From assembly GCA_913019975.1 (NCBI GenBank), contig CAJWBH010000019.1, positions 1 through 64,000 of the forward strand: DNA of 64,000 bases. The letters run 5' to 3'. Of this stretch, positions 23,921 through 62,045 are shown piece by piece (the stretch's first letter is position 1; every line of letters starts with the position of its first letter). The notes beneath the pieces are model-generated. The model was not told the DNA's origin, did no database searches, and saw only the letters and a list, made by a program, of their open reading frames with translations. Position numbers and translations under genes: made by a program. Source of the stretch: Thalassolituus maritimus (lineage in GTDB: Bacteria > Pseudomonadota > Gammaproteobacteria > Pseudomonadales > Oceanobacteraceae).

Positions 23921-23921
23921 T

Positions 23922-24927: not shown

Positions 24928-25980
24928 TCAGAGCTGACTCATGAACTTACTAACATCATTAAGCGGAAGGACACGATCAGCTAACCCTGCATTGATCACA
25001 GCCATCGGCATTCCATATATAACACAGCTCTGTTCATCCTGGGCCCACAAGTGCCCACCCGACTGCTTGAGTAACCGGGCTCCTTCACGTCCATCTGCTC
25101 CCATCCCCGTCAAGACGATGCCTAACGCCTTACTACCGTAATGTTTTGCTGCAGAAGCAAGAGCAATATCGACACTCGGCCGATAGCTTACCCGCTCGTC
25201 ACTTTCCAGAATATGAATCGATCCACCGTGGCGTTTATCAACGATCAGCTGCTTGCCCCCAGGTGCAACATAAACGTGACCCGGTTTTAAAATATCACCC
25301 TCTTCTGCCTCTTTGACACTTAACGCACTGAGATTATTCAGCCGCTCAGCAAACGCTGCGGTGAACGAAGCAGGCATGTGCTGCACGATAATAATGGGCT
25401 TGTTAAATCCTGCGGGCAAACTCTTGAAAATATTCTGCAGAGCAGCAGGGCCACCGGTGGACGTACCAATGACCACCAGTTCAAGATGACGCGGCACCGG
25501 CTCGTTCGCCCCTGCCGCAGTGGGCGTCTTTTTTTGTGAAGGTTGAGATGGGGAGGTTGAAACCTGCGCGGTACCCTTCAGCTGCCCCCTCGCTACGGCA
25601 ATAATTTTTTCGGCAAGTAACTTACGGATAGAGGCTGCGTTGCGGGCAATAGCATCGAAATTCTTCGGCAAAAAATCGACGGCCCCAGCGTCCAGGGCAT
25701 CCAGCGTTACCCGGGCACCTTCAAAGGTCAATGATGAAAACATCAGAACTGGCACCGGGGTCGATGCCATTATTTTTCGTACTGCAGTGATGCCATCCAT
25801 GACAGGCATCTCGTAATCCATGGTGATTACGTCAGGTTTCAGTTTGTCATTCAGCTCAATGGCCTGAAGCCCGTTTTCAGCTACGCCAATCACCTCAAGA
25901 CGAGGATCGGCATTGATAATATCTGTCACCCGGCGGCGGAAAAAACCTGAATCATCCACCACCAGAACTTTTAAAGCCAT
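24928..25980 (-). CDS. cheB: CheB methylesterase (flagellar, F6-type system)
   Basis: Receptor demethylase/deamidase with an N-terminal receiver (phospho-acceptor Asp55 in ITMDYEMPVMDG) and a C-terminal methylesterase domain with Ser in IGTSTGGPAAL, His in VQHMPASF and Asp in GMGADGREG. The linker of about 60 residues is Ser/Pro/Lys-rich. The ATG at 25980 (MALKVLVVDD, AGGAAG upstream) is chosen over 26022 because receivers start there. Last gene of the flhA-fliA-cheYZAB run. Confidence 0.95.
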   Translation of the reverse strand: MALKVLVVDDSGFFRRRVTDIINADPRLEVIGVAENGLQAIELNDKLKPDVITMDYEMPVMDGITAVRKIMASTPVPVLMFSSLTFEGARVTLDALDAGAVDFLPKNFDAIARNAASIRKLLAEKIIAVARGQLKGTAQVSTSPSQPSQKKTPTAAGANEPVPRHLELVVIGTSTGGPAALQNIFKSLPAGFNKPIIIVQHMPASFTAAFAERLNNLSALSVKEAEEGDILKPGHVYVAPGGKQLIVDKRHGGSIHILESDERVSYRPSVDIALASAAKHYGSKALGIVLTGMGADGREGARLLKQSGGHLWAQDEQSCVIYGMPMAVINAGLADRVLPLNDVSKFMSQL

Positions 25981-25993
25981 AATACTTCCTGTG

Positions 25994-28321: not shown

Positions 28322-28333
28322 TCAACCGCTCCT

Positions 28334-29110
28334 CTAGAACCCTAAGCTCGACAACAGATCATCGACATCATCCTGGCTACTCACTACACCATCGGCTTTG
28401 CTATCGGTCTGTGGACCTTCAGGGTTAATATCCGGGCCTTTATCAGGCGCCGGCGTGCTTTGTTCAAACTCATGGTTGATGCCAGTGATCTGATCAACCT
28501 GCCCTGCCATCGAGACCAGTGTGACCAGGCGTCCTTCCACATCGCGAATCAGATTGATCACTTTATGAATGACCTGCCCGGTCAAATCCTGAAAGTCCTG
28601 AGCCAGGACAATTTCAGAAAACTGTTTCTTTATTTCCGACGAATCTTTAACGCTGCTGGAAAGATATTCATCAATATCACGACTGAGTTCGCGAAATTCG
28701 GAGGTATTCATTTCGCGTTTCATAAATCGTTTCCAGCGAGCAGAAAGTTCCGCTGCCCGATCGCCCATAGCGCCCGCCAAAGGGCCGCCGGCATCGGCGA
28801 TATCCATCGTGCGATTGGCTGACTTATCCGTCATTTCAAGAACGTACGTCAGCTTATCGGTTGTCTCGGTAATATCAGAAGCGGCGCCAACCGTATCGAC
28901 ATTCAGATTCTTGATCGACTCATGCAAGGCACGGGTCAGTCGTCCGATCTCGTTATACAGTGTGCGATCACGCAACTGATTGAGGTCGTTTACCAGAGCA
29001 ACTGCTTTACCGAGATCTCCCTGCTCGAGCTGTTCGAGCATATTCTCCGCAAGCGAGCGTATCTCCGAGCCGACCTGGTTGTCCTTATTGTCCAGGTTTA
29101 CATCCACCAT
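28334..29110 (-). CDS. cheZ: CheZ phosphatase
   Basis: Dephosphorylates CheY-P. 258 residues, long helical protein with the catalytic-glutamine segment VLAQDFQDLTGQVIHKVINL and a C-terminal CheY-binding peptide (DDVDDLLSSLGF) after a flexible linker. Presence of CheZ marks this as the flagellar motor-controlling system. Between cheY and cheA. Confidence 0.95.
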   Translation of the reverse strand: MVDVNLDNKDNQVGSEIRSLAENMLEQLEQGDLGKAVALVNDLNQLRDRTLYNEIGRLTRALHESIKNLNVDTVGAASDITETTDKLTYVLEMTDKSANRTMDIADAGGPLAGAMGDRAAELSARWKRFMKREMNTSEFRELSRDIDEYLSSSVKDSSEIKKQFSEIVLAQDFQDLTGQVIHKVINLIRDVEGRLVTLVSMAGQVDQITGINHEFEQSTPAPDKGPDINPEGPQTDSKADGVVSSQDDVDDLLSSLGF

Positions 29111-29124
29111 GGCGCTACCTTTAA

Positions 29125-29499
29125 TCAGCCTTCGACGCGTTCAAAAATCTTATCGATTTTTTCTTTAAGTACTGCCGCGGTGAAGGGCTTAACGACGTAT
29201 CCGTTCACGCCTGCCTGTGCCGCTGCAACGATCTGATCGCGCTTGGCTTCCGCAGTCACCATCAGAACTGGCAGAGTTTTAAGGCGCTCGTCTTCCCGCA
29301 CATGCTTGAGAAGATCCAGGCCTGTCATCCCTGGCATGTTCCAGTCGGTGACCAGAAAATCGAAGTCGCCATTCTGCAGCATCGGCAACGCTGTTGTGCC
29401 ATCGTCTGCCTCCTGAGTGTTGGTGAAACCAAGATCACGCAGCAGGTTTTTGACGATACGTCTCATTGTTGAAAAATCATCCACAATGAGAATTTTCAT
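29125..29499 (-). CDS. cheY: CheY response regulator (flagellar motor)
   Basis: A single-domain receiver of 124 residues with Asp52 in [12 protein letters not shown], the acidic pair VDD at 6-8, Thr in MVTAEAK and Lys in [10 protein letters not shown]. It binds FliM when phosphorylated. The ATG at 29499 fits the family; the longer frame from 29544 does not. 169 bases separate it from fliA; this gap holds a purine-rich tract (29587-29604) but no promoter I could identify. Confidence 0.95.
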
Positions 29500-29668
29500 G
29501 TTCTTGTCCAAAACGACCTCCAATATACGACTTTTACAAACCAAGCCGGTCCTGAATTAAGTTTAGACCCAGTTAGCGGTTTATCCAGAAAGAGAGAGAA
29601 AGAATAGAAAAGAATAATGACGGCGTCTGATATGGTCTGAAAGCGCTGGATGCGCCGGTAGGGAAAAA

Positions 29669-40361: not shown

Positions 40362-40376
40362 GCAAAGCTTGTGCCA
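40362..40376 (-). promoter_or_regulatory. RpoN (sigma54) promoter for fliL operon
   Basis: Minus-strand TGGCACAAGCTTTGC is a perfect -24/-12 match (TGGCAC-N5-TTGC). The predicted start is about 20 bases before fliL. Confidence 0.9.
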
Positions 40377-40574: not shown

Positions 40575-41951
40575 TTAAGCGAATGTATCCAGTAAAGAAT
40601 CAGGGGCCGGTGTATGCGCCTGATTTATACCGACTACCTCCTCCCCTTCAGCGCCAGATCCGCCAGCAAAACCCGCATTTGAGCCGTCAGAGTTATCAGA
40701 AGCACCGTCCCTACCTTGACCACCACTGTCGGCAGAAACACTGAATTCACTCAACTCAATACCCTCAGCAGCAAGTGCATCCCGCAGCCGCTGGGCACTG
40801 TTGTCGAGTACATCTTTCACCTGGTGACTCTGTGCAGACACCTGAACACTGGCTTGATCATTCTGTACCTGCATACGAATTTCGAGACTGCCCAACTCAG
40901 GAGGGTCAAGCTGAATACGCGCCTGCTGAACATCGTTCGCGACCATAGTCACCAAACGAGCACCTAACGCTGGCGTCCACTCCCTACGGTCCTGCCCAAA
41001 TTCCAGTCGCTCCCGGAACTGACGCTGGAGCTTCTGCTCAAAGCCTTCTTCAAAAGTGTAATCCTCTGAAGCGACTTCTTCGCCAGTGCTTTCAGCGTTA
41101 ACCAGGTCTGCATTAGCGGCCGCGGCTGTCGTTGCTGCGGCTGGCTGCCCCTGAGTCGATACTGGCGCTGCAGTGGTTTGTACTGTTGGTGAGCTTCCCT
41201 GATTATTCAGCAGGCTCTCTCTGAAACCGGACGTTTCCGGGCGTGTGTCATCAGCGGTCACGGGTTTAAACACATCACTGACCAGTTCACCCTCAGCGTC
41301 TTCTGAAACTGATTCAGTGGGATTAGCAGCCGCGGCTGTTAGTTGGGATTTGCCTGTGGCTCTCTGATCACTCTGCTGGCGCATCTCGCCAGAGTTCTGG
41401 CTACGTATCGCATTCGCCATCGGCGAGACAGTCGCGGCCGCAAGCGGTGAAGCAGTATCTGTCACACGATCCGAAGGCGTGGCTAGTGTAACATTAGCCG
41501 ATGCATCAAGATCAGCACCGTCAAAGTCTTCAGCTATATGACCGCCTGACGCCACTTCTGTATCGGCGTAACGCACTGAAATGTCTTTTCCTTTCTGAAT
41601 CTGAGCCATCAGGGTGTCGCCCATCAGCTCCTGGCCTGATGTATCAACAGGCTCACCAGTAGAGAGAAGCGAGAGGCTTTCCCCCGACAATGCGGTGTCC
41701 TTGTCGCCTGATAAACCGAGCGGCAAGTCCAGCGGCAGATTTTGCCCCTCTGAGATTGCCGCCAGGGCCGAAGGTATGCCGCCAGTTTTTTCTGTATCCA
41801 GCGGTTGAAGCTGCATCTGATCAAGCAGACTTGAGAAGTCACTTAAGCCAGAGGCCCCGTCACCACTGAGTTTCAGGTCTTTAAAGTCGATATTTCCGCC
41901 AAGCGACATCAGAAGTGATGCCATCGGACTGTTTGGAAGAGAAGGGTTCAT
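40575..41951 (-). CDS. fliK: flagellar hook-length control protein FliK
   Basis: Molecular ruler that is secreted and ends hook growth. 458 residues; a long low-complexity Ser/Ala/Gly/Gln-rich N-terminal part and the C-terminal Flg_hook domain (ARIQLDPPELGSLEIRMQVQNDQASVQVSAQSHQVKDVLDN) at about residues 340-425. Preceded by its own RpoN promoter; first flagellar gene after the HptB-HsbR-HsbA and F7 blocks. Confidence 0.93.
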   Translation of the reverse strand: MNPSLPNSPMASLLMSLGGNIDFKDLKLSGDGASGLSDFSSLLDQMQLQPLDTEKTGGIPSALAAISEGQNLPLDLPLGLSGDKDTALSGESLSLLSTGEPVDTSGQELMGDTLMAQIQKGKDISVRYADTEVASGGHIAEDFDGADLDASANVTLATPSDRVTDTASPLAAATVSPMANAIRSQNSGEMRQQSDQRATGKSQLTAAAANPTESVSEDAEGELVSDVFKPVTADDTRPETSGFRESLLNNQGSSPTVQTTAAPVSTQGQPAAATTAAAANADLVNAESTGEEVASEDYTFEEGFEQKLQRQFRERLEFGQDRREWTPALGARLVTMVANDVQQARIQLDPPELGSLEIRMQVQNDQASVQVSAQSHQVKDVLDNSAQRLRDALAAEGIELSEFSVSADSGGQGRDGASDNSDGSNAGFAGGSGAEGEEVVGINQAHTPAPDSLLDTFA

Positions 41952-41986: not shown

Positions 41987-42001
41987 GCAAAAGGTGGGCC
42001 A
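41987..42001 (-). promoter_or_regulatory. RpoN (sigma54) promoter for fliK
   Basis: Minus-strand TGGCCCACCTTTTGC has GG and GC 10 bases apart and one mismatch in TGGCAC. The predicted start is about 25 bases before fliK. Confidence 0.8.
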
Positions 42002-42029: not shown

Positions 42030-42356
42030 TTAAACAAGAGTGTTCAATTGTTGACGCACCTGCTGGTAAGACTGCTCCAGCGCATCTATCGCACCAGGGA
42101 GTTGGTCCAGAGCACCATCGATCGCCATTTTTTCTACAGTATATGCCTGCTCTGCTAAATCAACCGCGCAGACATTGCTGCTCGCGCCCTTGAGACTATG
42201 CACCGTCATCCGGACGCTTTCACAATCCCCCTCACTAAGTGCCATGCGCATCTCCGGGAAACGTCTGTCGCTATCGCGGATATACAATTCAATAAGAGGT
42301 TGAAACTCCTCTTCCATGATGTCCTTAAGCATGTTCAGCGACTCAATATCAATCAT
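42030..42356 (-). CDS. hptB: histidine phosphotransfer protein, HptB-like
   Basis: 108-residue stand-alone Hpt domain with phospho-accepting His53 in MTVHSLKGASSNVCA. In Pseudomonas aeruginosa HptB takes phosphate from several hybrid kinases and passes it to HsbR. Here it overlaps the hsbR-like gene by 4 bases, which supports this assignment. No hybrid kinase is in the window. Confidence 0.8.
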   Translation of the reverse strand: MIDIESLNMLKDIMEEEFQPLIELYIRDSDRRFPEMRMALSEGDCESVRMTVHSLKGASSNVCAVDLAEQAYTVEKMAIDGALDQLPGAIDALEQSYQQVRQQLNTLV

Positions 42357-44059
42357 GTCGCCTGTTCCAGTGGCCAGTGAATGACTACAGATACTTCGTT
42401 ACCTTTGCCGCGATATTCAATCGAATCACAGATGCTTTCAATAAGGGGAATGCCTCTGCCCGAGTAATTGTTGCCGCTGCCTTCCTCTCTATCATGGCGC
42501 TTGTAATCAAAACCATCACCGCTGTCTTCGAGGGTCAGCGTCAGAGTGCCACTCTCACCGACTCCGGTATGGTGCATATTAATGCGGACAAAACCTTCCT
42601 CAAGCTCAGCGACACGCTTCTCTCTCTGACGGTAATATTCTATGAATCCATCCGGAGACTGCTTCATTGAAGATTGTAGACCTAACACACCATGTTCAAA
42701 GGCGTTTGAAAATAACTCTGCAACAACAGTGTACAACTGCCCGCCAATCGCCCGTAACCCCGGAACCTCCATCATTATATGATTCATCAGCGGCACTGGG
42801 TTGAACGACTTCAAGGTCGAAGCTTCAAGGCGATATTCCATACTCCAGTCGCGTGGCCCCTGGGATATACCGGCTTTTGTGACCCCGCTTTCATTATCTT
42901 CGCGAAGCGCATCATCCATGACCACTTCGATCAGTGTCGTGTCGTCATCCTGCTCTGAACCGTCGACAAACTCATCTACTGCGCGCTGAATATCATCATA
43001 GACATCGCTGGCATGAGCCGAATCGCGTACAACATTTATCAGCCTTTCCTGCCCAAACATTTCGCCATCGGAATTACGCGCTTCGATAATGCCGTCCGAC
43101 CAGAGAAATAAACGATCACCGTTCGCCATTGGAAATTCAGTCATCTGATCATTGAACTTGTCGGCAGACATCACACCGAGAGGTAGATGGCGAGAAGACA
43201 ATGTCTCGATCCTCTCTCCATCGTTACGTAGCAGATAGCAGTCAGGTACGCCCCCCATCCAGACACTGGCTGCCTGCCTATCGGGAGCCAGGTCAACGGC
43301 AGCAGCGCAGCAGAAGAAGCCTACGGGCAGAATACTTTTCAATTTCTGGTTAATTTCACGAAGTACTTCACGCAGACCAAAGCCTTTTGCGGTCATACCG
43401 TAAAAGATATCCGCCATAGGCATAGCACCAATCGCAGCCGGAAGGCCGTGCCCGGTAAAGTCCCCGAGCAGTACATGCATACCACCACCCGGCTTACGCG
43501 CGGCCAACAGAACATCGCCATTGAAAACAGCCAGCGGAGAAAGTTCGTACCTAATATTGGGGGACGTCAGGCAGCCTGCATGAGCGACGTTATCGTATAC
43601 CGCCTTTGCCACTCGCTGCTCCTGCAACATGTGGCGGTTGACCCGGGCGATTTCATCACGCTGATTCAACAGCGTTCGATGCATCTCCGACATGCGATGA
43701 TAGGAATCTATTTTTGCCTGAAGGACAACATGATTATACGGCTTGGTCAGAAAGTCGTCGCCACCTGATTCGAGACAGTCGGCAAGACTCTGGGCATCCG
43801 ACAGCGACGTCAGGAAAATCACCGGAACGAAATCTTCTTCGGCTATGGATTTGATCTGGCGGGTGGCCTCTTTTCCGTTGAGGCCGGGCATCATTACGTC
43901 CATCAAAACAATATCAGGGCGATGCTCCGTGAAGATATCTACCGCTTCAAATCCATTTGTTGCTTCTATTACTTCGTTTCCCTGGTTGCGGACTACTCGC
44001 GATAACACCTTGCGGTCAACGCTGTTATCGTCCGCGATCAGGACCTTATAAGCGGTCAT
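42353..44059 (-). CDS. hsbR: response regulator with PP2C phosphatase and HATPase domains, HsbR-like
   Basis: 568 residues: receiver (Asp54 in VLMDVMMPGLNG), SpoIIE/PP2C phosphatase at about 165-375 (GGGMHVLLGDFTGHGLPAA; DRLFLWSDGIIEARN; DDDTTLIEV) and a C-terminal RsbW-like HATPase (LYTVVAELFSNAFEHGVLG; LTLEDSGDGFD; GRGIPLIESICDSI). This is the architecture of HsbR, which both phosphorylates and dephosphorylates the STAS protein HsbA. Its neighbours are a STAS gene and an Hpt gene, the same trio. Cytosolic. Confidence 0.85.
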   Translation of the reverse strand: MTAYKVLIADDNSVDRKVLSRVVRNQGNEVIEATNGFEAVDIFTEHRPDIVLMDVMMPGLNGKEATRQIKSIAEEDFVPVIFLTSLSDAQSLADCLESGGDDFLTKPYNHVVLQAKIDSYHRMSEMHRTLLNQRDEIARVNRHMLQEQRVAKAVYDNVAHAGCLTSPNIRYELSPLAVFNGDVLLAARKPGGGMHVLLGDFTGHGLPAAIGAMPMADIFYGMTAKGFGLREVLREINQKLKSILPVGFFCCAAAVDLAPDRQAASVWMGGVPDCYLLRNDGERIETLSSRHLPLGVMSADKFNDQMTEFPMANGDRLFLWSDGIIEARNSDGEMFGQERLINVVRDSAHASDVYDDIQRAVDEFVDGSEQDDDTTLIEVVMDDALREDNESGVTKAGISQGPRDWSMEYRLEASTLKSFNPVPLMNHIMMEVPGLRAIGGQLYTVVAELFSNAFEHGVLGLQSSMKQSPDGFIEYYRQREKRVAELEEGFVRINMHHTGVGESGTLTLTLEDSGDGFDYKRHDREEGSGNNYSGRGIPLIESICDSIEYRGKGNEVSVVIHWPLEQAT

Positions 44060-44068: not shown

Positions 44069-44371
44069 TTACTGAATAGTGAAAAGTTGCTCGAAGTTAG
44101 AAATCGCTAATATCTTACGAACATCGTCGTTGCAGTTCGTAATTGAAATTTCAGAGTGATCGCCTCCCGCATGATCGCGCAGCAGAAGCAGCATACCCAA
44201 AGCTGAGCTGTCGAGGTAAGTAGCACCGCCCAGGTCGACAATATATTTCCGCACCTGCGAAGCACTTTCATACGCATCACGGAATTCCTGATGAGCACTG
44301 AAATCAAACCGTCCGTCTACCTGAATAACCAGTTCCTGGCCGTTACCTGCCAATGATGCACGTACTGACAT
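44069..44371 (-). CDS. hsbA: STAS-domain anti-sigma-factor antagonist, HsbA-like
   Basis: 100-residue STAS domain; the phosphorylatable serine is in GGATYLDSSALGMLLLLRD (Ser55/Ser56; Ser56 is the site reported in P. aeruginosa HsbA). In that species HsbA switches between the anti-sigma factor FlgM and a diguanylate cyclase, coupling motility to biofilm. Partners here are inferred. 9 bases before hsbR. Confidence 0.8.
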   Translation of the reverse strand: MSVRASLAGNGQELVIQVDGRFDFSAHQEFRDAYESASQVRKYIVDLGGATYLDSSALGMLLLLRDHAGGDHSEISITNCNDDVRKILAISNFEQLFTIQ

Positions 44372-44430: not shown

Positions 44431-45477
44431 TCATAACAAACGCGCTTTTTTAATCATTTCTGACGCAATTCCTGTCAAAGGAATCAGTTCATCCACGGCG
44501 CCCAGCTCGTAAGCAGCTCTGGGCATTCCCCAGACAACAGAAGATGCCTCATCCTGCGCCATGGTCAGGGCACCAGCGTCATGAAGCCGCTTCATGGCAA
44601 CTGCGCCATCAGCCCCCATACCCGTCAGCATCACAGCCACCAGGCGCTTACCACCCGCAACCTGTAGCAATGAATCAAACATTGCCTCAACCGAAGGTTT
44701 ATGGAGATTCTGTTTCGGGCCATCGTCCACGATGGTAAACAGCTGATCGCCCTTCCGCCTGAAGCGCAGATGACGCCCGCCCTGAGCAATAATCACCCGG
44801 CCAGGAATCACTTCAAGATCATTTCTCGCTTCAAGCACTTCCATCGGATAGAGGTTATCCAGGCGTTTCGCCAGCGAGGCACTGAACACCTCAGGAATAT
44901 GCTGACTGACAACAATAGGAGGGCAGTTCACCGGTAGCGACGAAAGAACCTCTGAAATCGCCTCAGTCCCACCTGTAGAGGACCCAACGGCGACGATTCG
45001 CCGATAGTTATCATTCGTTTCACGTGTCACAACTCGTGTCGTTTTCTGGCTTCTTGTCGTTTCAACGGCAACGACACGCGCCTGCGAAGCAATCCGGACT
45101 TTATCACATAGTGCTTCTGCAAATTCGTAAAACTCGTCTGGGCTTTGTGCTTTGGGCTTACAGATGTAATCAACCGCGCCCATTTCCAGGGCTTCAAGCG
45201 TCTCTGGCGCCCCTTTTTCGGTAAGAGTCGATACCATCACTACCGGCATGGGTCGAAGGCGCATCAGGTTGCTGAGAAACTGCAACCCATCCATTCTCGG
45301 CATTTCTACGTCAAGCGTGATGACATCCGGATTCAACTGCTTAATTTTATCCCGGGCTATTAATGGATCACTGGCCACACCGACGACATCTATATCGTCG
45401 GTACTATCAAACACTTCACGCAGCATTTTTCGAATAAGAGCGGAATCATCAATGATCAGGACTTTAATTTTACTCAT
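44431..45477 (-). CDS. cheB: CheB methylesterase of the second (F7-like) chemosensory system
   Basis: Receiver (Asp56 in ITLDVEMPRMDG) plus methylesterase domain with Ser in GSSTGGTEAI, His in VSQHIPEVF and Asp in GMGADGAVA. ATG 45477 (MSKIKVLIIDD, AGGGGAA upstream) is chosen; the longer frame overlaps cheD. 348 residues. Final gene of the cassette that begins with the STAS gene at 53080. Confidence 0.94.
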   Translation of the reverse strand: MSKIKVLIIDDSALIRKMLREVFDSTDDIDVVGVASDPLIARDKIKQLNPDVITLDVEMPRMDGLQFLSNLMRLRPMPVVMVSTLTEKGAPETLEALEMGAVDYICKPKAQSPDEFYEFAEALCDKVRIASQARVVAVETTRSQKTTRVVTRETNDNYRRIVAVGSSTGGTEAISEVLSSLPVNCPPIVVSQHIPEVFSASLAKRLDNLYPMEVLEARNDLEVIPGRVIIAQGGRHLRFRRKGDQLFTIVDDGPKQNLHKPSVEAMFDSLLQVAGGKRLVAVMLTGMGADGAVAMKRLHDAGALTMAQDEASSVVWGMPRAAYELGAVDELIPLTGIASEMIKKARLL

Positions 45478-45488
45478 ACACGTTCCCC

Positions 45489-46133
45489 TCAAAAAAGATC
45501 AATACCGCTGTCTCCCTGCTCCATATCTTCCATCTTAACTTTGCGGCTGTATTCGGTTTCACGTTTCATCAATGTATCGTTCTTAACGTTAGAGATACGG
45601 CGCATTTTCACCGACCCTGTGTCAGGGAAGTACAGAACCTTACGTGCGTAGACATCGCCAACGTCTGCACTGGCGATCTCAAGCCCTTCATTTCGCAGGT
45701 AGTTGTACACAAACAGAATATTCCGCTGACCAATATCACTCATAGACGCAATCATCTGGCCGCCACCGAATAGCTTCACTTCAAGGTTCTGTCGTCGCCC
45801 ACCGCGCTTGAGTATTTCGTTGATCAGAAATTCCATCGCCCAGGTACCGTAACGTGAGTTCTGAGTCACCGGGTTGGACCCCCAGACATCACTGGAGTGC
45901 TCACTCTGCTCCGGAAGCATAAAGTGGTTCATTCCGCCGATTCCCAGCTTACGATCACGAATACACGCTGAGACACAAGACCCTAAAACGGTCGCAATCA
46001 TCTCTCCTTGTGTCGAAACGTATAGTTCACCGGGAAGAATTTTGGCGGCCCAGGTGTTGTGAACCCCGTCCCAGTATCGCGCGACATGCTCAAAACCACT
46101 GAGAGGTTTCGGTTCGGGTGGGCGCTGATGCAT
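45489..46133 (-). CDS. cheD: CheD receptor glutamine deamidase
   Basis: Deamidates receptor glutamines. 214 residues with the catalytic Cys in TVLGSCVSACIRD and His in GGMNHFMLP, plus KLFGGGQMI. An unusually long N-terminal lead of about 45 residues precedes the domain. Between cheR and cheB. Confidence 0.92.
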   Translation of the reverse strand: MHQRPPEPKPLSGFEHVARYWDGVHNTWAAKILPGELYVSTQGEMIATVLGSCVSACIRDRKLGIGGMNHFMLPEQSEHSSDVWGSNPVTQNSRYGTWAMEFLINEILKRGGRRQNLEVKLFGGGQMIASMSDIGQRNILFVYNYLRNEGLEIASADVGDVYARKVLYFPDTGSVKMRRISNVKNDTLMKRETEYSRKVKMEDMEQGDSGIDLF

Positions 46134-46144
46134 AGGCAGATCCC

Positions 46145-46993
46145 TTAGTAAATTTTCTGGTATATGGTATTACCCAGCGACTTGAAGCGGTCTGTAAGAC
46201 CGTTCAGTGATTCTGAGTGACCTATGATCAGATAGCCCCCTACCGGTAGATAATCAGCATAGCGATTGAACAGGGTTTTCTGAGTTTCTCGATTGAAATA
46301 AATCACGACATTACGGCAAAAAATAACGTCGAATTTGCCTTTCATTGGCCAACCTTCCAGGAGGTTCAGACGTTTAAAATGCACGAGATCACGTATGCTC
46401 TTTCTCACGCGGACCTGGTTACCAGTCCGGTTCTTTTCAAAGAATTTTTCGACAGCATCATCTGGCACAGACATCAGACTGTCTGCAGAGTAGACTCCCT
46501 CAGCGCCCGTACTGACGACGTTAGAATCCAGATCAGTCGCCAGGATTTTCACGTCAAACGCTGAAGCCATATGCGCTTCAGCCAGAGTGAAGGCGATGGT
46601 GTACGCCTCTTGTCCGATGGAACAACCAGAAGACCAGATTCTCACCTTCTTATCTGATTTTTTCTTCAATTCCGGAATGACCGTATCTCTTAAGAAATCA
46701 AAGTGATGCGACTCCCGGTAAAAAGACGTCAGATTGGTTGTAATTAAGTTGATGAAATTAGTCGATTCATCCCGAAAGTTGTCTTTCAGGTACTCCAGAT
46801 AATCAGCAAAGTTCCGGTACCCCGTCTGACGCAGCCTGCGAGCGATACGTCCATACACCATATTTGCTTTATGACGGCCCAGAACAATCCCTGTATGCTT
46901 AAGAGCAAGAGCGGCGATTTCGTCAAAATCGCGCTCTGTCATTAAAAACTCTTTGTCGGCTAACAGTGGCTTATCAGACACATGTGCGTTCAT
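46145..46993 (-). CDS. cheR: CheR methyltransferase of the second chemosensory system
   Basis: SAM-dependent receptor methyltransferase, 282 residues, with an N-terminal helical domain, SSGCSIGQEAYTIAFTL, ILATDLDSNVVSTG and FDVIFCRNVVIYFNRETQ. The receptor next door ends in a WEEF pentapeptide that CheR of this type can bind. 6 bases after the receptor gene. Confidence 0.94.
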   Translation of the reverse strand: MNAHVSDKPLLADKEFLMTERDFDEIAALALKHTGIVLGRHKANMVYGRIARRLRQTGYRNFADYLEYLKDNFRDESTNFINLITTNLTSFYRESHHFDFLRDTVIPELKKKSDKKVRIWSSGCSIGQEAYTIAFTLAEAHMASAFDVKILATDLDSNVVSTGAEGVYSADSLMSVPDDAVEKFFEKNRTGNQVRVRKSIRDLVHFKRLNLLEGWPMKGKFDVIFCRNVVIYFNRETQKTLFNRYADYLPVGGYLIIGHSESLNGLTDRFKSLGNTIYQKIY

Positions 46994-46999
46994 ACCTGA

Positions 47000-49747
47000 T
47001 CAAAACTCTTCCCAGTCGTCGTCAAAGTTACTCACCGACAATCCCCCCTGGTCGGCAGCTGACGCAGATGGAGCAGGTGCCACCTTTGGAGCAGCAGCTG
47101 GAGCAGGTGCTGCCGCAACGGGTGCATCCATCGACATAGACCCGGAGGCGAAAGATGCATCAACTGTGAAGAATTCCATTAACTGGGTCATTCCCTGAGC
47201 CTGACCGGCCATGGCCTCACCCGCCGCCGTTGCCTGCTCAACCAGAGCAGCGTTCTGCTGCGTCATTTCATCCATCTGGGCAACCGCGCTGTTCACCTGA
47301 TCAATACCCGCAGACTGCTCAGCAGCCGCAGTACTGATTTCCTGGATCATAGCTGATACACGATCAACTGCGCCGATAATTTCATTCAGGGTTTTACCCG
47401 ATGCATTCACCAGAGACGTCCCTGCTTCAACCTTATCCACACTGTCGCGGATCAGATCCTTGATCTCTTTCGCAGCACCAGCTGAGCGCTGAGCCAGATT
47501 CCGGACTTCACCTGCCACAACCGCAAATCCACGGCCCTGCTCACCTGCACGCGCCGCCTCTACAGCAGCATTCAATGCCAGCAGATTCGTCTGGAAGGCG
47601 ATTTCATCAATCACACCGATAATGTCTGAGATCTTCTTACTGGCCTGATTAATTTCATCCATCGCAGTGACGGCTTTCTCGACAACCTCACCACCTTCTT
47701 CGGCTTTGTTCTTCGCAGAACTTGCCAGCTCATTGGCATGTACCGAGTTTTCACTGGTCTGCTTCACTGCACTAGTCATTTCTTCCATACTGGAAGCCGT
47801 TTCTTCCAGGCTGGATGCCTGCGACTCAGTACGCTTACTCAGATCCGCATTGCCCTGAGCGATTTCACTGGCACCGGTAGCAACGGTCGATGCAGACTCA
47901 CGGATACGGGTCATTATTTCAGTCAGGCGCTCAACCGTTGAGTTGGCGTCCTGCTTGAGCTTGCCAAATGACCCCATGTAATCAGTTTCGATTTTGCGGG
48001 TCAGATTGCCATGCGCCAGTGCATCAAAGATACGCACGGTGTCATTAACCACGTCATCGGCAATACCAAGAAGGCGGTTAAGCCCTTCTGCCAGACCAAG
48101 GAAGAAACCTTGTTTACCGATCGTATCGATACGACGGGACAGATCACCGCCTGCGGCTGCCTCAACAATGGCATCGATTTCACGCTCAGCGCGGACTTCG
48201 ATAGTTCGGTCAGTCCACTCAACCACCGTCCCCAAACGCTCATTACTGTCGTTAATAATTGGGTTAGCGATCAACGCATAGTGACGGCCGCCGACTTCAA
48301 TCTGAGTTTTATAGGTCTGTGTTAAGGCGGCCAGCATAGAGCGCTGATGCGCAGGGTTCTTATGGAATGTATCGATATTCGCGCCCATTAAGGCCGAGGC
48401 ATTAAATGAAGGCAGATCTTTACGCAGATCCGCTTCAGAATTCTTCATCATATTTTCAACGGCTTCGTTCATATAGATGATGTTGCCGTCAGTGTCCGCA
48501 ATCATGGCATTCGTGCTGACAGAGTCGAGAGCCTGGCGTACCCGAAGGTTCTCGTCTGAAATACGCTTTTCTTCTTCCCGAGCCTTGAGAATATCGGTCA
48601 TATCAACCCACTCAACCACGGTGCCGATGCGATTACCATCTGCGTCGTACCATGGCGATGCGGTCAGATCGAACTTAACATCATCGAATGAAAGCTGGGT
48701 TTCAATGGGCTTATCAAGAGCCTTAAGAATGCCACGCTGATGCGACGGCTTTTTATGAAAGCTATCGACGTTAGTGCCGATTAACTCCGACACTTTGAAG
48801 TTACTGAGATGCTTCTGGATATCTGCTTCGCGATTCTGAAGCATTTTAACCATCTCATCGTTCATATAAACGATATTGAGATCATTATCTGCCATCATCA
48901 CGGTTGCCTGGCACAACTTCAGTGCGCTGGCAATCTGTGCATTTTTCTCGTTCAGCGCAGCCCTGGCTTTCTGCTCGGTGATGTCTGAGGCAAATTTCAC
49001 GACTTTAACAACATCCCCATCATCATTAAGGATGGGGTTATAAGTCGCCTGAATCCAGACAGAGGTGCCATCTTTCGCAACACGCTCAAATTCATCGGCA
49101 CTGAACTCACCTTGGCCAAGCTTCTTCCAGAATTCTGCGTATTCAGGGCTGTTTGCATACTCTGGTTTTACGAACATGCGATGATGCTTCCCCTGAATCT
49201 CACTAAGCTGATAACCCAAGGTATTCAGGAAATTATCGTTCGCGGTCAGGATCTCACCCTCTGGCGTAAACTCAATCATGGCCTGGGCACGACTGATGGC
49301 TTCTACTTTGCCCGCGTAATCAATATTCCGACGTTTCTGCTCTGTAATGTCGGTTGCGTACTTAATAACCTTCACCACTTTGCCGGTTTCATCAAAGATT
49401 GGGTTATACGTCGCCTGAATCCAGATACTCTCGCCTGCTTTGTTAAAGCGCTCAAACTCCGCCGTCTGAAAATCTCCGCGTGCCAGAGAATTCCAGAAGG
49501 CCGCGTATTCTGGCGTTTTAGCGTACTTAGCCGACACAAAAATACTGTGGTGCTGGCCTTGTATTTCTTCCAGACGGTAGCCCATCGCATCCAGAAAATT
49601 CTGATTTGCTGTGACAATCGTTCCGTCCGGCTTAAATTCGATAGAAGCCTGACTTTTCTCAATCGCAGCCAGCTTCCCTTCCATTTCACGGATTTTATTA
49701 GGGTCGATGGCTGCGCCACCGGAAATGATATTGCGGAAAAAGCTCAT
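47000..49747 (-). CDS. soluble methyl-accepting chemotaxis protein with four PAS and two HAMP-like domains
   Basis: 915 residues and no transmembrane segment, so a cytosolic receptor. Four PAS domains at about 25-135, 148-258, 275-388 and 405-515 form two tandem pairs of near duplicates: the first pair shares WIQATYNPI and DITEQK, the second FHK-P-HQR and GTVVEW. Two HAMP-like segments follow (520-620), then a signalling domain that aligns with E. coli Tsr without gaps ([29 protein letters not shown]), i.e. the 36H class. The C terminus DWEEF fits the CheR-binding pentapeptide (NWETF, or GWEEF of P. aeruginosa McpB/Aer2). Cofactor (heme or FAD) not deducible; the conserved His in the second PAS pair are candidates. 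Confidence 0.92.
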
Positions 49748-49790
49748 AGTTACCTTCCTGTACCTTCTTCAGGCAAATACCTTACGGCAG

Positions 49791-50312
49791 TTAATCTTCA
49801 TCAATAGAATAAGGAGTTGCAGCCATACCCATGCGTAGCATCAGTAGCTCTTCTACATCGAGCAGAATGACCATCTTCTCGTTTACGTTCACCAGACCTT
49901 TAATAAAATCTGAATTATCGTCCTCGGTCAGCTCCGGAGGACGACGGGTATCATCGTCAGCAATGGTATAAACATCAGATACGGCATCAACGACGATCCC
50001 CATCACCCGCTCCCCATTACCGCTATCAAACTTTAAGATAATGACAACAGTCGTCGCGGTATAACCGGCCTCTTCAAGGCCAAATCTCAGGCGTAAATCC
50101 ATGATGGGCACGATGGTGCCGCGAAGATTGATCACACCGCGAATGTAGGATGGTGCGTTAGGAATAAGAGTGGGTTCTTCCCAGCCCCGAATCTCCTGTA
50201 CTGCCAGAATATCTACACCGTACTCTTCACCTGACATGATGAACGTCAGGTATTGCTGCTCGTCACCGATGTCACCTTCAGGCAAAACTATCTCTTTCTT
50301 AAGCTCTTCCAT
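49791..50312 (-). CDS. cheW: CheW coupling protein of the second chemosensory system
   Basis: CheW adaptor with YLTFIMSGEEYGVDILAVQEIRGWEEPT, PNAPSYIRGVINLRGTIVPIMDLRLRFG and VMGIVVDAVSDVY; 173 residues from ATG 50312, which has GAGG 6 bases upstream. An ATG four codons earlier (50324) overlaps the cheA stop as ATGA and is an alternative. Near the upper length for CheW. Confidence 0.94.
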   Translation of the reverse strand: MEELKKEIVLPEGDIGDEQQYLTFIMSGEEYGVDILAVQEIRGWEEPTLIPNAPSYIRGVINLRGTIVPIMDLRLRFGLEEAGYTATTVVIILKFDSGNGERVMGIVVDAVSDVYTIADDDTRRPPELTEDDNSDFIKGLVNVNEKMVILLDVEELLMLRMGMAATPYSIDED

Positions 50313-50320
50313 CCCGGACC

Positions 50321-52402
50321 TCATGCAGCTCGTTCAGAGCGGTTCTGGTTTCGTTTAACAGGAACAATATTTTTACCGATACTGGAAATGTCGATAATTA
50401 AAGCAACGGTTCCATCACCCAGAATTGTGGCGCCCGAAATACCGGACACTTTCTGATAATTCTGTTCAAGACTCTTAATAACAACCTGCTGCTGGCCCAG
50501 AAGATCATCGACCACGATGCCGATTTTTTCGTTATCGCCTTCAACAACCACCAGCATCATTTCATCGACAACATCTTTGTCATCACGCAGACCAAAGATC
50601 TGGTCGAGTCTTACAATCGGAATATATTCATCACGCAACTGCATGACGTACTGGCTGCCAGTGACATGATTCAGTGAAGACCTGTGAATCTGGATGGATT
50701 CAACAATCGATACCAGCGGGAAGATATACGTTTCTTCACAGACCTTAACGAGTTGTCCATCGAGAATGGCGAGTGTCAGTGGTAAGCGAATAATGAAGGT
50801 AGAACCCACGTTACGCTGAGACTTGACTTCAATACTGCCATTCAGCGCCTGGATATTCCTACGTACCACATCCATACCAACACCACGGCCAGAAATATCG
50901 CTCACCGCTTCTGCTGTTGAGAACCCTGGCAGGAAAATAAGGTTGTGTATTTCCTCTGGAGTAAGGCTGTTATTCTCTGGTACCAGACCTTTTTCGATCG
51001 CTTTTTTCAGAATCCGGTCTTCGTTCAGGCCAGCGCCGTCATCCGCGACTTCAATAACGATATTTCCGCCCTGGTGGTACGCATTCAGGGTGATGGTACC
51101 CTCTTCAGATTTACCGGCAGCGATACGCTTTTCTGTTGTCTCAAGTCCGTGATCCATTGAGTTACGAACGAGGTGTACGAGAGGATCGTTGATTTTTTCC
51201 ATCACCGTTTTGTCTAGTTCAGTCTGCTCGCCGATGGTTTCGAGAATCACTTTCTTACCGAGCTGACCACCCAGATCCCGCACCAGGCGCGGGAAGCGAC
51301 TGAAGGCAAAACTGATCGGCATCATGCGTATTTTCATGACGCTTTCCTGCAGTTCGCGCGTATTCTGTTCCAGCTGAGACAAGCCTTCCTGCAGTTTTGC
51401 AAGGCGGCTCAGATCAAAGTCCTGTCCAAGCTGACCCAGCATCGACTGGGTAATCACCAACTCACCGACCATATTGATCAGGCTGTCTACTTTATCGATA
51501 GACACACGGATCGATGAGCTTTCGGCGGCCTTCTTCGGAGCTTTTGCCGGCTTCGCGGATTTCTGAGCCTCAGCCACAACCGCAGTTTTTTCAGGTGACG
51601 CAACTGCGGCTGCCTCAGGTAATTGTCCAGCAGCAGGTGTTCCGGTAGCATCTACAGCACTACTCTCTGCTTCTACTTCGGAAGTACCCACCAACGGCGA
51701 GTACGTCAGATCACACTCGTCTTCTACCCATTCAAAAATCGCTTTAATATCATCGAGTGGAACTGAAGTAGTGACTTTAATCTGCCAGTTCATGACACAC
51801 TCTTCCGGTGCCAGACTGCTCAGTTCAGGGACGCTGTCTATATCGGCAGTGACTTCAAAATTGTCTTCCCCGACCAGTTCGCGTAATTCACGGAACATAC
51901 GGAAGGGTTCGTTACCCGTCATCAGAAGGTCGGTATGCGGTTGAACGTCAATCAACCAGCCGCCATCTTTTTCATCAGGCTCTGAAGCAGCCTCTTCTGG
52001 AGCGCTTTCCTGCTCCATGCCGAGAATAACTTCAAATTCTTTACGGAGTTCTGCCGGTCGCTCTGTCTCTGGATCGTTACCTTCCTGCATATCGGATAAC
52101 ATGCCGCGCAGGCAATCGACCGACTGCAAAAACAGGTCGACATAGCGAGGCTCCATAGAGCGCTTTCCGGAGCGTATTTCATCCAGTAAGGTTTCGAGAA
52201 CGTGAGTGAACTCGGACACCGGCATAAAACCGAATGTGCCGGCACCACCTTTAATGGAATGAGCGGCACGGAAGATATTGTTAACGGTTTCGTCATCAAC
52301 ATCTGCCGGGTCCATATCCAGCAGCTCACTTTCCATTATGTCGAGGCCTTCGAAACTTTCTTCGAAAAACACCTGATGGAATTGCGACAGATCGACACTC
52401 AT
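50321..52402 (-). CDS. cheA: CheA histidine kinase of the second (F7-like) chemosensory system
   Basis: 693 residues: P1 with His48 in RAAHSIKGGAGTFGF, a middle region (about 165-235) resembling a P2 domain, linker, P3 (VDKVDSLINMVGELV), P4 kinase (HLVRNSMDHGLE, DDGAGLN, GRGVGMDVV) and P5. It lacks the LID-type motifs of the flagellar CheA, so ParC/ParP would not be expected to localise it. 4 bases after cheY. Confidence 0.95.
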   Translation of the reverse strand: MSVDLSQFHQVFFEESFEGLDIMESELLDMDPADVDDETVNNIFRAAHSIKGGAGTFGFMPVSEFTHVLETLLDEIRSGKRSMEPRYVDLFLQSVDCLRGMLSDMQEGNDPETERPAELRKEFEVILGMEQESAPEEAASEPDEKDGGWLIDVQPHTDLLMTGNEPFRMFRELRELVGEDNFEVTADIDSVPELSSLAPEECVMNWQIKVTTSVPLDDIKAIFEWVEDECDLTYSPLVGTSEVEAESSAVDATGTPAAGQLPEAAAVASPEKTAVVAEAQKSAKPAKAPKKAAESSSIRVSIDKVDSLINMVGELVITQSMLGQLGQDFDLSRLAKLQEGLSQLEQNTRELQESVMKIRMMPISFAFSRFPRLVRDLGGQLGKKVILETIGEQTELDKTVMEKINDPLVHLVRNSMDHGLETTEKRIAAGKSEEGTITLNAYHQGGNIVIEVADDGAGLNEDRILKKAIEKGLVPENNSLTPEEIHNLIFLPGFSTAEAVSDISGRGVGMDVVRRNIQALNGSIEVKSQRNVGSTFIIRLPLTLAILDGQLVKVCEETYIFPLVSIVESIQIHRSSLNHVTGSQYVMQLRDEYIPIVRLDQIFGLRDDKDVVDEMMLVVVEGDNEKIGIVVDDLLGQQQVVIKSLEQNYQKVSGISGATILGDGTVALIIDISSIGKNIVPVKRNQNRSERAA

Positions 52403-52406
52403 GTGC

Positions 52407-52769
52407 TTACCCCAGAACGCGCTTGATCGTACTCAGCAATTGATCCGGATTAAACGGCTTCACAATCCAGCCGGTAGCACCAGCCTGTTTACCCTGCATT
52501 TTCATGTCACCTGCGGATTCGGTGGTGAGCATTAACATTGGAGTAAACTTGTAGTTATCGAGTTGACGAAGGTTCTTAACCAACTCAATGCCATTCATAT
52601 TTGGCATATTTACGTCAGTCAGCACCAGGTCAAAGCTCTCAGTTTTAGCGATTTCTAGCGCCTCCACACCGTCAGTCGCTTCGCGTACGTCAAAGCCCGC
52701 ACCTTTCAGTGTGAAGCTCACCATCTGACGCATGGATGCCGAATCATCGACCGCTAAAATACTCGTCAT
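52407..52769 (-). CDS. cheY: CheY-type response regulator of the second chemosensory system
   Basis: 120-residue receiver with Asp52 in LVLTDVNMPNMNG, VDD at 7-9, Thr in MLTTESAG and Lys in IVKPFNPDQLL. Similar to CheY proteins of F7 clusters. Whether it targets FliM is unknown. 4 bases before cheA. Confidence 0.93.
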   Translation of the reverse strand: MTSILAVDDSASMRQMVSFTLKGAGFDVREATDGVEALEIAKTESFDLVLTDVNMPNMNGIELVKNLRQLDNYKFTPMLMLTTESAGDMKMQGKQAGATGWIVKPFNPDQLLSTIKRVLG

Positions 52770-52798
52770 AGGAGTACTCCCTCTTAGTAAACGAATAA

Positions 52799-53080
52799 TT
52801 AATCTGGCAGGTTTATCGCCTGCTTGAGGCCAAGGTAGCCCGTTATCTCCCGGATATTGTCAGAGACCGCATGCCATTGAATGCTGTTTCCCGTAGTTTC
52901 CAGTGTTTTTCGGAGGCTGATCAGAAGCTGGTAACCCGCTGTATCCGAGTACTGCACTTCACTGCCATCAAGAACAACATCCCCTCCCGCCTGAACAGCA
53001 GTTTCAAGCTTCTCCAGGAGCGCTTCAGCCTGATCAATGCTCAGACGACTACCGCAGTTAACTGGGCTGGTGTCGGTCAT
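52799..53080 (-). CDS. STAS-domain protein heading the second chemosensory cassette
   Basis: 93-residue STAS domain (LSIDQAEALLEKLETAV, GSEVQYSDTAGYQLLISLRK). The usual phosphorylated Ser position reads Thr in DTAG. Such STAS genes sit before cheY in some F7 clusters. Interaction with the HsbR-like kinase/phosphatase 9 kb downstream is possible but unproven. 129 bases follow the fliJ stop, with no clear promoter. Confidence 0.8.
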   Translation of the reverse strand: MTDTSPVNCGSRLSIDQAEALLEKLETAVQAGGDVVLDGSEVQYSDTAGYQLLISLRKTLETTGNSIQWHAVSDNIREITGYLGLKQAINLPD

Positions 53081-53209
53081 GGTTTCATTCCGGTCATGGA
53101 CATGACCTTAAGATTAGTAGGCAATCTGTGAGCTGCCACACGATGTGTCGTTTTTTTTGTAGATCAATGAATGAAGGTATGAAAGTCAAGAAATATAGGA
53201 TTTGGATAA

Positions 53210-53650
53210 TCAGCGACGACGGTTTGCCCACTCGTCCGCTTCACGCTGCTCAGCACGACTGATAGACAGCTTATGTTCTTCTTCGAGCTTATCGATCATA
53301 CTTTCCATCGCATCGGCTTTATGATGAACCTCTAAATAGGCGTCCCGTGCACGCTGACTGAGTGCCTCAAGTTCCTTGAGTTGGTTGTCCTGCTGCGCCA
53401 GAGCAGTTTCTATCTGACCAATAAATTCGAGAGAGTTGTGTATTTGTCCGGCAGCAACACTCTGGTCAGCTGGGCTGGTAATCTGGCGTCGATATTCCTG
53501 AGCGTACGTGTCCAGCTGCGTTCGTTTGTCTTTTTCGGCGGTCAGACGCTGCTCAATATCGCCCCAGCGCTGCAGCGCTTCTTTTTCTTCTCTTCGCTTA
53601 AGGTTAAGAACAACGGCCAATCGTTTGGAGCGAGGGTGCTGGTAGGTCAC
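53210..53650 (-). CDS. fliJ: flagellar export chaperone FliJ
   Basis: 146 residues, almost entirely coiled coil ([23 protein letters not shown] ... [23 protein letters not shown]). FliJ stimulates FliI and FlhA gating. Overlaps fliI by 4 bases (ATGA). Last gene of fliE-F-G-H-I-J. Confidence 0.9.
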
Positions 53651-60788: not shown

Positions 60789-61988
60789 TTAACCGCGTGC
60801 GAGCGGTAGGTACATTTCTGCAGACACCCCACCCAGTGGACTGTCGGTTAATCTGAAATCACCGTGATGGGCACGAACAACCGCCTGAACAACCGCAAGG
60901 CCAAGCCCTGTACCGTTGCTCTTCGTTGTAAAGAAAGGCTCCATCATGCGATTTTTCTTCTCGTCCGGGAGGCCGGGGCCGTTGTCCATCACGGCGAGAC
61001 ATAATCTGCCCTGATCGTCACGACGGGCGACCAACTTGATCTCGATAGGATGCTCACAGGACTCAAGTGCGTTATTAATCAGGTTCATTACTGCACTGAT
61101 TAAAGAGTCCCGATTACACATAAGGGAAGCTTCCCCCACTTCATTCTCAAGCGTGCAGACAGCACCGCTCTGGGCGACGGCAACCTCCATCGCCGAGGCA
61201 ATACCATCCAGCAGGGACGTCACTTTCACATCATCGTTTAATGGCGCCTCGCCACGGGCAAAAATCAACATATCGCGCACCTGGCTTTCCAGGTGATGAA
61301 GTCGCTCCTGCAACTTACCGGCAAAGCGAATACGATGTTCTTCAGCAAGATCTTCGGAATTAAGATGGCCCGCGTAGAGTGTCGCCGCGGCCAGCGGTGT
61401 CCGGATCTGATGCGCCAGAGACGCAACCATTTTCCCCATGGCGGACAAGCGTTCGTGTTGAGCCAACTGAGACTGTAATGCACGGGTTTCTGTCAGATCA
61501 GTAAGCAGGATCAGCTGCCCACGCTCATTGGTCATAGCTGCGGTGCGCAGACTGACACGGCGACCATCAACCAGCGAAATTTCATGACCATCATCACGGC
61601 GCGGTTTGAAACAACGCTTAATCACATTACGCCAGCGCTGGCCAAGCAAGGTGCCAGCCCCCGAAGCCGCTAATAAAAGGTCTTCGGCGGCTGGGTTACT
61701 CTGAATAATGACGCCATTTTCATCCAGCAGCAGAACACCTGCAGGTAACATCTGCAGCAGGCTTTCCAGACGATCGGCCAGGCGTTCTTTTTCGCCCAAC
61801 TCCTGCATCCTTTGAGCAGATACTGTCGCCAGCTCACCACTGAGTTGCTCGACCTTATTTTCAAGAAAGGCGTAGGAGTCTGTCAGCTGCTGCGACATTT
61901 CATTGAACATGTTAAATGCACGCTTTAGCTCGCTGGGGTCCAGCGGCTGCTGATCGTCAGGAACTGAACTTAATGCCACACTCGCCAT
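60789..61988 (-). CDS. fleS: sensor histidine kinase FleS
   Basis: A soluble kinase without membrane helices. 399 residues from ATG 61988 (MASVALSS, GAGG upstream): coiled coil (ELKRAFNMFNEMSQQLTDSY), PAS domain (LLQMLPAGVLLLDENGVIIQSNPA), HisKA with MVASLAHQIRTPLAA, and HATPase (NLINNALESCEHPI, DNGPGLPDEKK, GTGLGLAVV). Phosphorylates FleR. 28 bases before fleR. Confidence 0.94.
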   Translation of the reverse strand: MASVALSSVPDDQQPLDPSELKRAFNMFNEMSQQLTDSYAFLENKVEQLSGELATVSAQRMQELGEKERLADRLESLLQMLPAGVLLLDENGVIIQSNPAAEDLLLAASGAGTLLGQRWRNVIKRCFKPRRDDGHEISLVDGRRVSLRTAAMTNERGQLILLTDLTETRALQSQLAQHERLSAMGKMVASLAHQIRTPLAAATLYAGHLNSEDLAEEHRIRFAGKLQERLHHLESQVRDMLIFARGEAPLNDDVKVTSLLDGIASAMEVAVAQSGAVCTLENEVGEASLMCNRDSLISAVMNLINNALESCEHPIEIKLVARRDDQGRLCLAVMDNGPGLPDEKKNRMMEPFFTTKSNGTGLGLAVVQAVVRAHHGDFRLTDSPLGGVSAEMYLPLARG

Positions 61989-62045
61989 AAATACCTCACC
62001 AGAACACCACATTTGCGGCGGAAAAATGTCACTAGTAGGTATTGG

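Follow-up and report, generated by a model that had tools for sequence, protein, structure and literature searches.

What is a complete set of chemosensory genes doing inside a flagellar gene cluster, and to which partner would its kinase pass the signal? The question is raised by a 64,000-nucleotide (nt) stretch of a Thalassolituus maritimus genome (contig CAJWBH010000019.1, positions 1 to 64,000; hereafter the window), in which an F7-like chemosensory cassette lies between the flagellar gene fliJ and homologues of hsbA, hsbR and hptB. The answer we favour, with moderate confidence, is that the cassette belongs to a stage-1-like F7 array with the HsbR-HsbA partner switch as its output, lodged in the flagellar export operon by an old entry that was followed by repeated loss of che genes.

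An F7 cassette between fliJ and fliK

Open-reading frames (ORFs) and Pfam matches confirmed what a first-pass annotation of the window had proposed for 44431-53080: eight genes on the minus strand in the order STAS-cheY-cheA-cheW-receptor-cheR-cheD-cheB, with intergenic spacings of -4 to 43 nt (Table 1). The cassette is bounded by fliJ on one side and by hsbA-hsbR-hptB-fliK on the other, and Pfam likewise bears out the flagellar genes on both sides, with fliF, fliG, fliH, fliI and fliJ upstream and, after hptB, fliK, fliL, fliM and fliN downstream. The gaps at its edges measure 129 nt (fliJ to the first STAS gene, STAS1) and 59 nt (cheB to hsbA), and hptB is separated from fliK by 78 nt. The second CheA system that had been noted some 15 kb away is also present, as cheY-cheZ-cheA-cheB at 24928-29544; its F6 class is taken from CheZ and tree distance.

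Judged by its sequence, the cassette kinase is of the F7 class, as the first-pass annotation held; the CheA tree, the 36H receptor and the published F7 gene order (PMC7184735) agree on this. Among the 46 rows of a CheA tree, none of them named as V. cholerae or P. aeruginosa, it falls in a 22-row clade (Shimodaira-Hasegawa-like approximate likelihood ratio test, SH-aLRT, 98), 20 of whose 22 rows adjoin flagellar genes. F7-like systems of Methylococcaceae and Sedimenticola and those resembling E. coli form separate groups, and the window's other CheA (F6) is a very distant branch; this is a quick tree, in which the long branches of the F6 and E. coli-like rows caution against reading depth. The embedded F7 locus L061 has a CheA that groups with the F7 systems of genomes where they do not lie beside fli genes, and an HsbR outside the main group; it is a possible early branch or transfer.

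The receptor is Aer2-like. Its third and fourth PAS domains match the haem-PAS structures 3vol/4hi4 of P. aeruginosa Aer2 at 96-151 bits, with the His of an FH motif and the Trp of a V-x-W motif conserved in both; we take these residues to be the haem-binding H234 and gas-gating W283 of Aer2. No 19-residue window of the receptor exceeds a Kyte-Doolittle value of 1.23, and it is therefore described as having no clear membrane segment. The receptor is thus predicted to sense oxygen, another gas or redox in the cytosol, presumably through haem; as a prediction, the earlier suggestion of such sensing is supported. As had also been claimed, the receptor is 36H with a WEEF end: over the signalling domain it can be aligned to E. 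coli Tar and Tap without a gap, its last residues are DDWEEF, and the DWEEF fits the CheR/CheB tether pentapeptide x-[HFYW]-x2-[HFYW] as defined in PMC7184735, a motif present in 60 of the 67 receptor rows drawn from our loci. Nine other receptors of the same genome that span the signalling domain show paired insertions, each about 14 residues long (of the 15 receptors found, the comparison leaves out L149 and L157 and the incomplete L158, L159 and L161).

The unit extends into hsbA and hsbR

The first-pass annotation treated hsbA and hsbR as mere neighbours of the cassette, a view that has to be revised. A stage-1 F7 cluster comprises an anti-sigma antagonist, cheY, cheA, two cheW, aer2, cheR, cheD, cheB, an mcpA-like gene, a further anti-sigma antagonist and a serine phosphatase (PMC7184735), and because the final pair in such published clusters is a STAS gene with a serine phosphatase gene, the F7 unit in the window extends beyond 44431: hsbA and hsbR are its last two genes. 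The 5' anti-sigma antagonist is present, as are the STAS and serine phosphatase genes after cheB and a separate F6 system in the genome. There is a single cheW in place of two, and no mcpA-like receptor gene in the 59 nt before the second STAS gene (an McpA-like ORF does exist between cheB and hsbA in the related locus L093); as these two genes of the full stage-1 definition are missing, the cluster is a reduced stage-1-like F7 cluster. Similarly, the F7 locus Che1 of Shewanella oneidensis includes CrsR and CrsA (PMC9855816), which are homologues of HsbR and HsbA (PMC6482189).

The sequence features of the HsbA-HsbR-HptB switch are found in adjacent genes: a STAS protein with D-S-S, a receiver-PP2C-kinase protein and a histidine phosphotransfer (Hpt) protein with its His. 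The genome also encodes FlgM, RpoS and a FliA-type sigma factor. In Pseudomonas aeruginosa phosphorylated HsbA binds HsbR, releasing RpoS, and unphosphorylated HsbA binds FlgM, releasing FliA (PMC6482189); by analogy, the same bindings of HsbA to FlgM and HsbR, and of HsbR to RpoS, are predicted here. Under our model the soluble Aer2-type receptor would read cytosolic oxygen or another gas or redox signal through its haem-PAS domains, CheR, CheB and CheD would adapt it and set the activity of CheA, and CheA would phosphorylate CheY and CheB and also hand phosphate to the receiver of HsbR. HsbR would then phosphorylate or dephosphorylate HsbA, whose state may then either set RpoS free for stress and a settled life or, through binding to FlgM, release FliA for the late flagellar genes, with HptB as a second phosphorelay input to the switch. 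Transfer from CheA to HsbR and the sigma-factor output are inferred, and so is the flagellar or cyclic di-GMP output that had been proposed for the cassette.

The arrangement recurs across families

Two sets of loci were scored. In the named set, which holds the best 80 of 281 CheA matches and in which the closest relative of the cassette CheA is from Thalassolituus maritimus (92% identity), fliI lies at most 4 kb upstream on the same strand in 46 of 69 scorable loci, and hsbA or hsbR lies downstream of CheA in 55 of 65, where misses may be the ends of loci from longer clusters. Among the 40 downstream-scorable loci with fliI upstream, 39 have an Hsb gene downstream. The second set samples the order with 145 genomes, the window's own included, of which 98 have FliI. 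FliI, an F7 CheA, CheD and HsbR stand in one row in 13 of the 145 (again counting the window's own), and these span seven family codes (f1, f6, f7, f17, f22, f29 and f38); in 19 genomes an F7-like CheA shares the strand of FliI and lies no more than 20 kb from it. A bare form, with HsbR 0.9-5.2 kb from FliI and no CheD near, is found in 30 genomes, two of which (G098 and G035) retain a che-like gene in the gap and four of which, all of family f27, have a more distant HsbR 4.7-4.8 kb from FliI; G048 and G111 are two further bare-form genomes beyond the 30.

Given these counts the layout is neither unique nor universal, and the gene order is not chance, because it recurs in many genomes. The singular arrangement implied by the first-pass annotation therefore falls away, and a recent or unique insertion of the cassette is ruled out by its recurrence in both sets; the embedding between fliJ and fliK is best read as an old one, often lost since, rather than a fresh integration. 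An arrangement common across the order was to count as a refutation of the first-pass reading, and these counts largely show such an arrangement. In two genomes of family f21 (L105 in G122, L106 in G094) other ORFs, membrane- and kinase-like by eye, occupy 1.7-4.2 kb between fliJ and hsbA, and the gap therefore accepts other inserts.

Transcription of the block

A sigma-54-type site, TGGC-N7-TTGC, between hptB and fliK is a candidate restart of flagellar transcription. Further minus-strand sites of this type at 40376, 59380 and 62060 lie just before fliL, fliE and a kinase gene (60789-62012), respectively, among 12 matches of the pattern across the window, some of them within genes. Of 56 close loci, 39 have the pattern at 250-900 nt beyond hsbR, against 0 of 56 for equal-length stretches within hsbR (a coding-sequence control, in loci related to one another), with Ketobacter-like loci among the 17 that lack it; in the gap from fliI to cheA it occurs in 0 of 40 loci. 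At the other end, a block before STAS1 that four loci share is a candidate promoter or operator of the unit's own; a scan for sigma-70, sigma-54 and sigma-28 patterns before STAS1 gave no match. The F7-hsb-hptB block is thus probably transcribed separately, bracketed by a start of its own before STAS1 and a resumption of flagellar transcription after hptB, and a block so bracketed could grow or shrink without silencing fliK.

The same signals bear on what the flagellar position means. The array might serve stress or biofilm control only, its place among the fli genes being a harmless old rearrangement of no regulatory meaning; in favour of this are the signs that the block is transcribed apart from fli, and nine scored F7 loci that have hsb genes downstream with no flagellar gene seen near. 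This reading is unlikely in our estimate, as the position recurs across many families with hptB added to the unit, and in L017, where the flagellar block is inverted, the cassette, the hsb genes and fliK remain together.

Less likely still is that the F7 array is a second chemotaxis system for the flagellar motor, its CheY binding FliM and adding aerotaxis to the F6 system. The cassette does sit inside a flagellar operon, the motor is under F7 control in E. coli and, by prediction, at stages 3 and 4 (PMC7184735), and L045 and G008 retain F7 genes in the fli cluster without hsb. In that account of F7 evolution, however, motor output came with an F6-type CheY/CheZ and a Tar-like receptor (PMC7184735), whereas the receptor here is Aer2-like, cheZ goes with the F6 system and the usual partner is hsbA-hsbR. 

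A probable old entry, with repeated loss and the gain of hptB

Embedded and bare loci interleave in both a quick and a careful tree of HsbR. Ketobacter and family f29 are among the five embedded and two relic loci that make up one clade (support 100/100) of the careful tree, and another clade (100/99) unites two embedded with two bare loci of Saccharospirillaceae/f6; the FliI tree mixes embedded and bare loci in the same manner. An approximately unbiased (AU) test on the quick tree rejects the placing of all bare loci in one clade (p 3.9e-82, with L097 counted as bare). In the quick tree L068 (contig ends upstream) and L017 (flagellar block inverted) are labelled embedded, and L079 (fliK and fliL near) non-flagellar; the careful tree omits L068, L017, L107 and L039 (the last for want of an HsbR row), places L097 among the relics and includes in its outgroup L061, an embedded locus lying outside in the quick tree. 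Three genomes are each represented twice (L037/L094, L051/L091 and L057/L125); no tree has both of a pair, and both L051 and L091 enter the HptB and sigma-54-site counts.

Two loci carry remnants of an F7 cassette. In L096 (G028) fliJ is followed by an F7-like cheY, cheD and a 308-amino-acid (aa) McpA-like ORF, then by hsbA-hsbR-hptB; cheA, cheW, cheR and cheB were not found between fliJ and hsbA. In L097 (G098) a lone 298-aa ORF lies between fliJ and hsbA, matching the methyl-accepting chemotaxis protein (MCP) signalling domain at 35.4 bits against a cut-off of 34.6. The latter ORF is 42% identical to the one that separates cheB from hsbA in L093, an embedded locus, and the 308-aa ORF of L096, itself without a Pfam match, is 27% identical to it. 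Other loci are broken in different ways: G009 has a split cassette (L119/L120), with cheY-cheA in the flagellar cluster and cheW-receptor-cheR-cheD-cheB about 230 kb off, and G008 (L118) has a diverged che set before fliK without hsb, in which cheD contains a stop. In G035 the interval from fliJ to hsbA contains a CheR gene (L107:3463-4317) with 36% identity to that of the cassette, either a relic or a newcomer. We also considered whether, where the hsb locus is bare or a relic, an F7 system found at another place in the genome is the moved cassette; this is ruled out, as the CheAs of such systems (L110, L112 and L121) fall in another clade.

Across 25 embedded loci the distances of CheA, CheB, CheR and HsbR track those of FliI (Spearman 0.54-0.66; 0 of 999 as high in a Mantel test). 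Interleaving, relics and FliI-tracking distances together favour an old embedding with repeated loss: an F7-hsbA-hsbR unit would have entered between fliJ and fliK in an old ancestor (a single entry being simplest), gained hptB, and been mostly inherited with the flagellar genes, with several losses of che genes leaving the bare fliJ-hsbA-hsbR-hptB-fliK.

An Hpt gene follows hsbR in 58 of 58 loci with a close HsbR (at least 535 tblastn bits) and in 0 of 9 distant loci (L079, L082, L083 and L130-L135; at most 438 bits). The count excludes L046, a 106-bit minus-strand fragment with no Hpt, as well as six loci truncated no more than 2 nt from hsbR; the Hpt hidden Markov model was built from close loci and could therefore miss a divergent Hpt, and the ORF lists of the distant loci also show no candidate. 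This distribution suggests that hptB joined the unit around the time of its entry into the flagellar cluster, where it would have given HsbR a second kinase route and CheA may therefore have become dispensable. More tentatively, as a possibility that we take seriously without leaning on it, the bare HptB-HsbR-HsbA module between fliJ and fliK in many Pseudomonadales may be the stump of an ancestral F7 array, in which CheA would have been the original input, hptB would have made CheA dispensable, che genes would have been lost repeatedly and the sigma-54-type site of fliK would have allowed the shrinkage with no harm to flagellar expression; lineages such as Thalassolituus would then keep the complete two-input version.

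Several observations weigh against the reading of old entry, loss and switch output. Deep branches of the HsbR tree are weak, and the number of losses is therefore unsure; counts of changes on the tree cannot separate gain from loss, and the polarity depends on two relic loci, in two genomes of a single family, and on the order of outgroups. F7 genes lie in the fli cluster without hsbR there in L045 and in G004, G008, G113 and G140, which means that CheA can outlive HsbR. Within the CheA clade of the cassette, proximity to FliI was not seen for L122 and L123, and the fli-linked F7 systems L045, L059, L061, L079 and L118 fall outside it, so that the flagellar link could go back further or have more than one origin. 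The model gives STAS1 no role, and in P. aeruginosa HsbR receives its input from HptB (PMC6482189; PMC8036289).

The reverse order of events, with hsbA-hsbR-hptB first between fliJ and fliK and the che cassette inserted before hsbA several times by transfer, is the least probable of the alternatives: bare loci do outnumber embedded ones in the order sample (30 vs 13) and the change counts leave the direction unfixed, but the cheY-cheD-McpA-like remnant of L096 and the McpA-like ORF of L097, the presence of hsbA or hsbR after cheB already in F7 clusters away from flagellar genes, and the agreement of Che with FliI distances all speak against it.

Features of the locus

Table 1. Genes and sequence signals of the F7-hsb-hptB block and its flanks, with the evidence for each.
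Feature	Position	Strand	Evidence
FliJ, neighbour upstream	53210..53650	-	PF02050
Conserved block upstream of STAS1, GTGTGGCAGC..TAATCTTAAGGTCAT, candidate own promoter/operator	53092..53141	-	Near-identical in L009, L010 and L011; preceding DNA differs in L010
Palindrome GGTCATGTCCATGACC before the STAS1 start codon, perfect 7-bp inverted repeat (GGTCATG-TC-CATGACC)	53092-53107	-	Kept in L009 and L011; imperfect in L010
STAS1, first gene of the cassette	52799..53080	-	PF13466, 57.6 bits; D-T-A replaces D-S-S at the usual phospho-site
CheY of the F7 system	52407..52769	-	PF00072; D52 in at least 97% of 39 rows
CheA, F7 class	50321..52402	-	PF01627, PF02895, PF02518, PF01584; tree
CheW	49791..50324	-	PF01584, 129 bits
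Aer2-like 36H receptor (4 PAS, HAMP, MCP signalling domain, DDWEEF C-terminus), without clear transmembrane segment	47000..49747	-	Pfam (PAS x4-HAMP_2-MCPsignal), structure matches, alignment
CheR	46145..46993	-	PF01739, 213 bits
CheD	45489..46133	-	PF03975; NF010013 above cut-off
CheB	44431..45492	-	PF01339, PF00072; NF001965 above cut-off
HsbA/CrsA-like anti-sigma factor antagonist (STAS)	44069..44371	-	PF13466/PF01740; LDSSALGML motif in at least 97% of 39 rows
HsbR/CrsR-like response regulator (receiver, SpoIIE-type phosphatase, HATPase_c_2)	42353..44059	-	Pfam; trees
HptB-like histidine phosphotransfer protein, H53	42030..42356	-	PF01627; top PDB match 7c1i, 59.6 bits
Sigma-54-type site, candidate flagellar transcription restart	41987..42001	-	Pattern scan; conserved in kin
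FliK, neighbour downstream	40575..41951	-	PF02120

In an alignment of 33 rows, STAS1 conserves only I15, D46 and Q51 in at least 97% and varies fast elsewhere, most rows having D-T/S-A/S vs the strict D-S-S of HsbA. Near the F6 genes stand a ParA-type ATPase gene (23922-24695), an unmatched 112-aa ORF and a gene for a CheW-domain protein whose N-terminal part is long (22744-23616); the ATPase and the CheW-domain protein (22744-24695) may resemble the ParC-ParP polar-array pair of Vibrio.

Significance and comparison with known systems

The function of ancestral F7 arrays has been described as still unknown (PMC7184735). An ancestral-type F7 array is here tied, across families and inside the cluster of the flagellar export ATPase, to a switch with known outputs in P. 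aeruginosa (FlgM/FliA and RpoS), which turns the question of function into a defined assay, transfer of phosphate from CheA to HsbR, that can be run on harmless marine bacteria, and suggests an origin for the much-studied HptB pathway. No description of an F7 system between fliJ and fliK was found in the titles and abstract openings of the literature searched, most subscription journals lying outside that scope; the main text of Ortega et al. (PMC7184735) contains neither fliJ nor a name starting with Oceanospirill, and its supplementary neighbourhood figure may show the layout. F7 with CrsR/CrsA and the HptB-HsbR-HsbA pathway are each already published; what is new here is the interleaving of embedded and bare states in the HsbR trees, the F7 relics between fliJ and hsbA, the distribution of hptB and the sigma-54-type site after it.

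Among the systems most like it is F7 stage 1 as described for Vibrio cholerae and M. alcaliphilum (Ortega et al. 2020, PMC7184735), with which the window shares the gene order, a 36H Aer2-like receptor with pentapeptide and a separate F6 system, and from which it differs in its single cheW, the lack of an mcpA-like gene, its place between fliJ and fliK and the added hptB. Che1 of S. oneidensis is similar in that F7 genes adjoin an HsbR/HsbA-type partner switch, but it has McpA in the locus, and no flagellar gene or HptB is named there in the available text (PMC9855816). With the stage-5 F7 system of E. coli the window shares an F7 CheA, 36H receptors and adjacent flagellar genes. The E. coli system differs in its Tar-like receptors, in the presence of CheZ and in the loss of cheD (PMC7184735). 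It also differs in that no STAS or HsbR gene occurs in the stretch examined and its CheA falls in a separate group of the tree. In P. aeruginosa, Che2 is located elsewhere in the genome than the HptB-HsbR-HsbA genes. The three proteins of that pathway have the same architecture as those encoded here and govern FlgM/FliA and RpoS; chemosensory genes are not described alongside them in the available parts of the two accounts (PMC6482189; PMC8036289).

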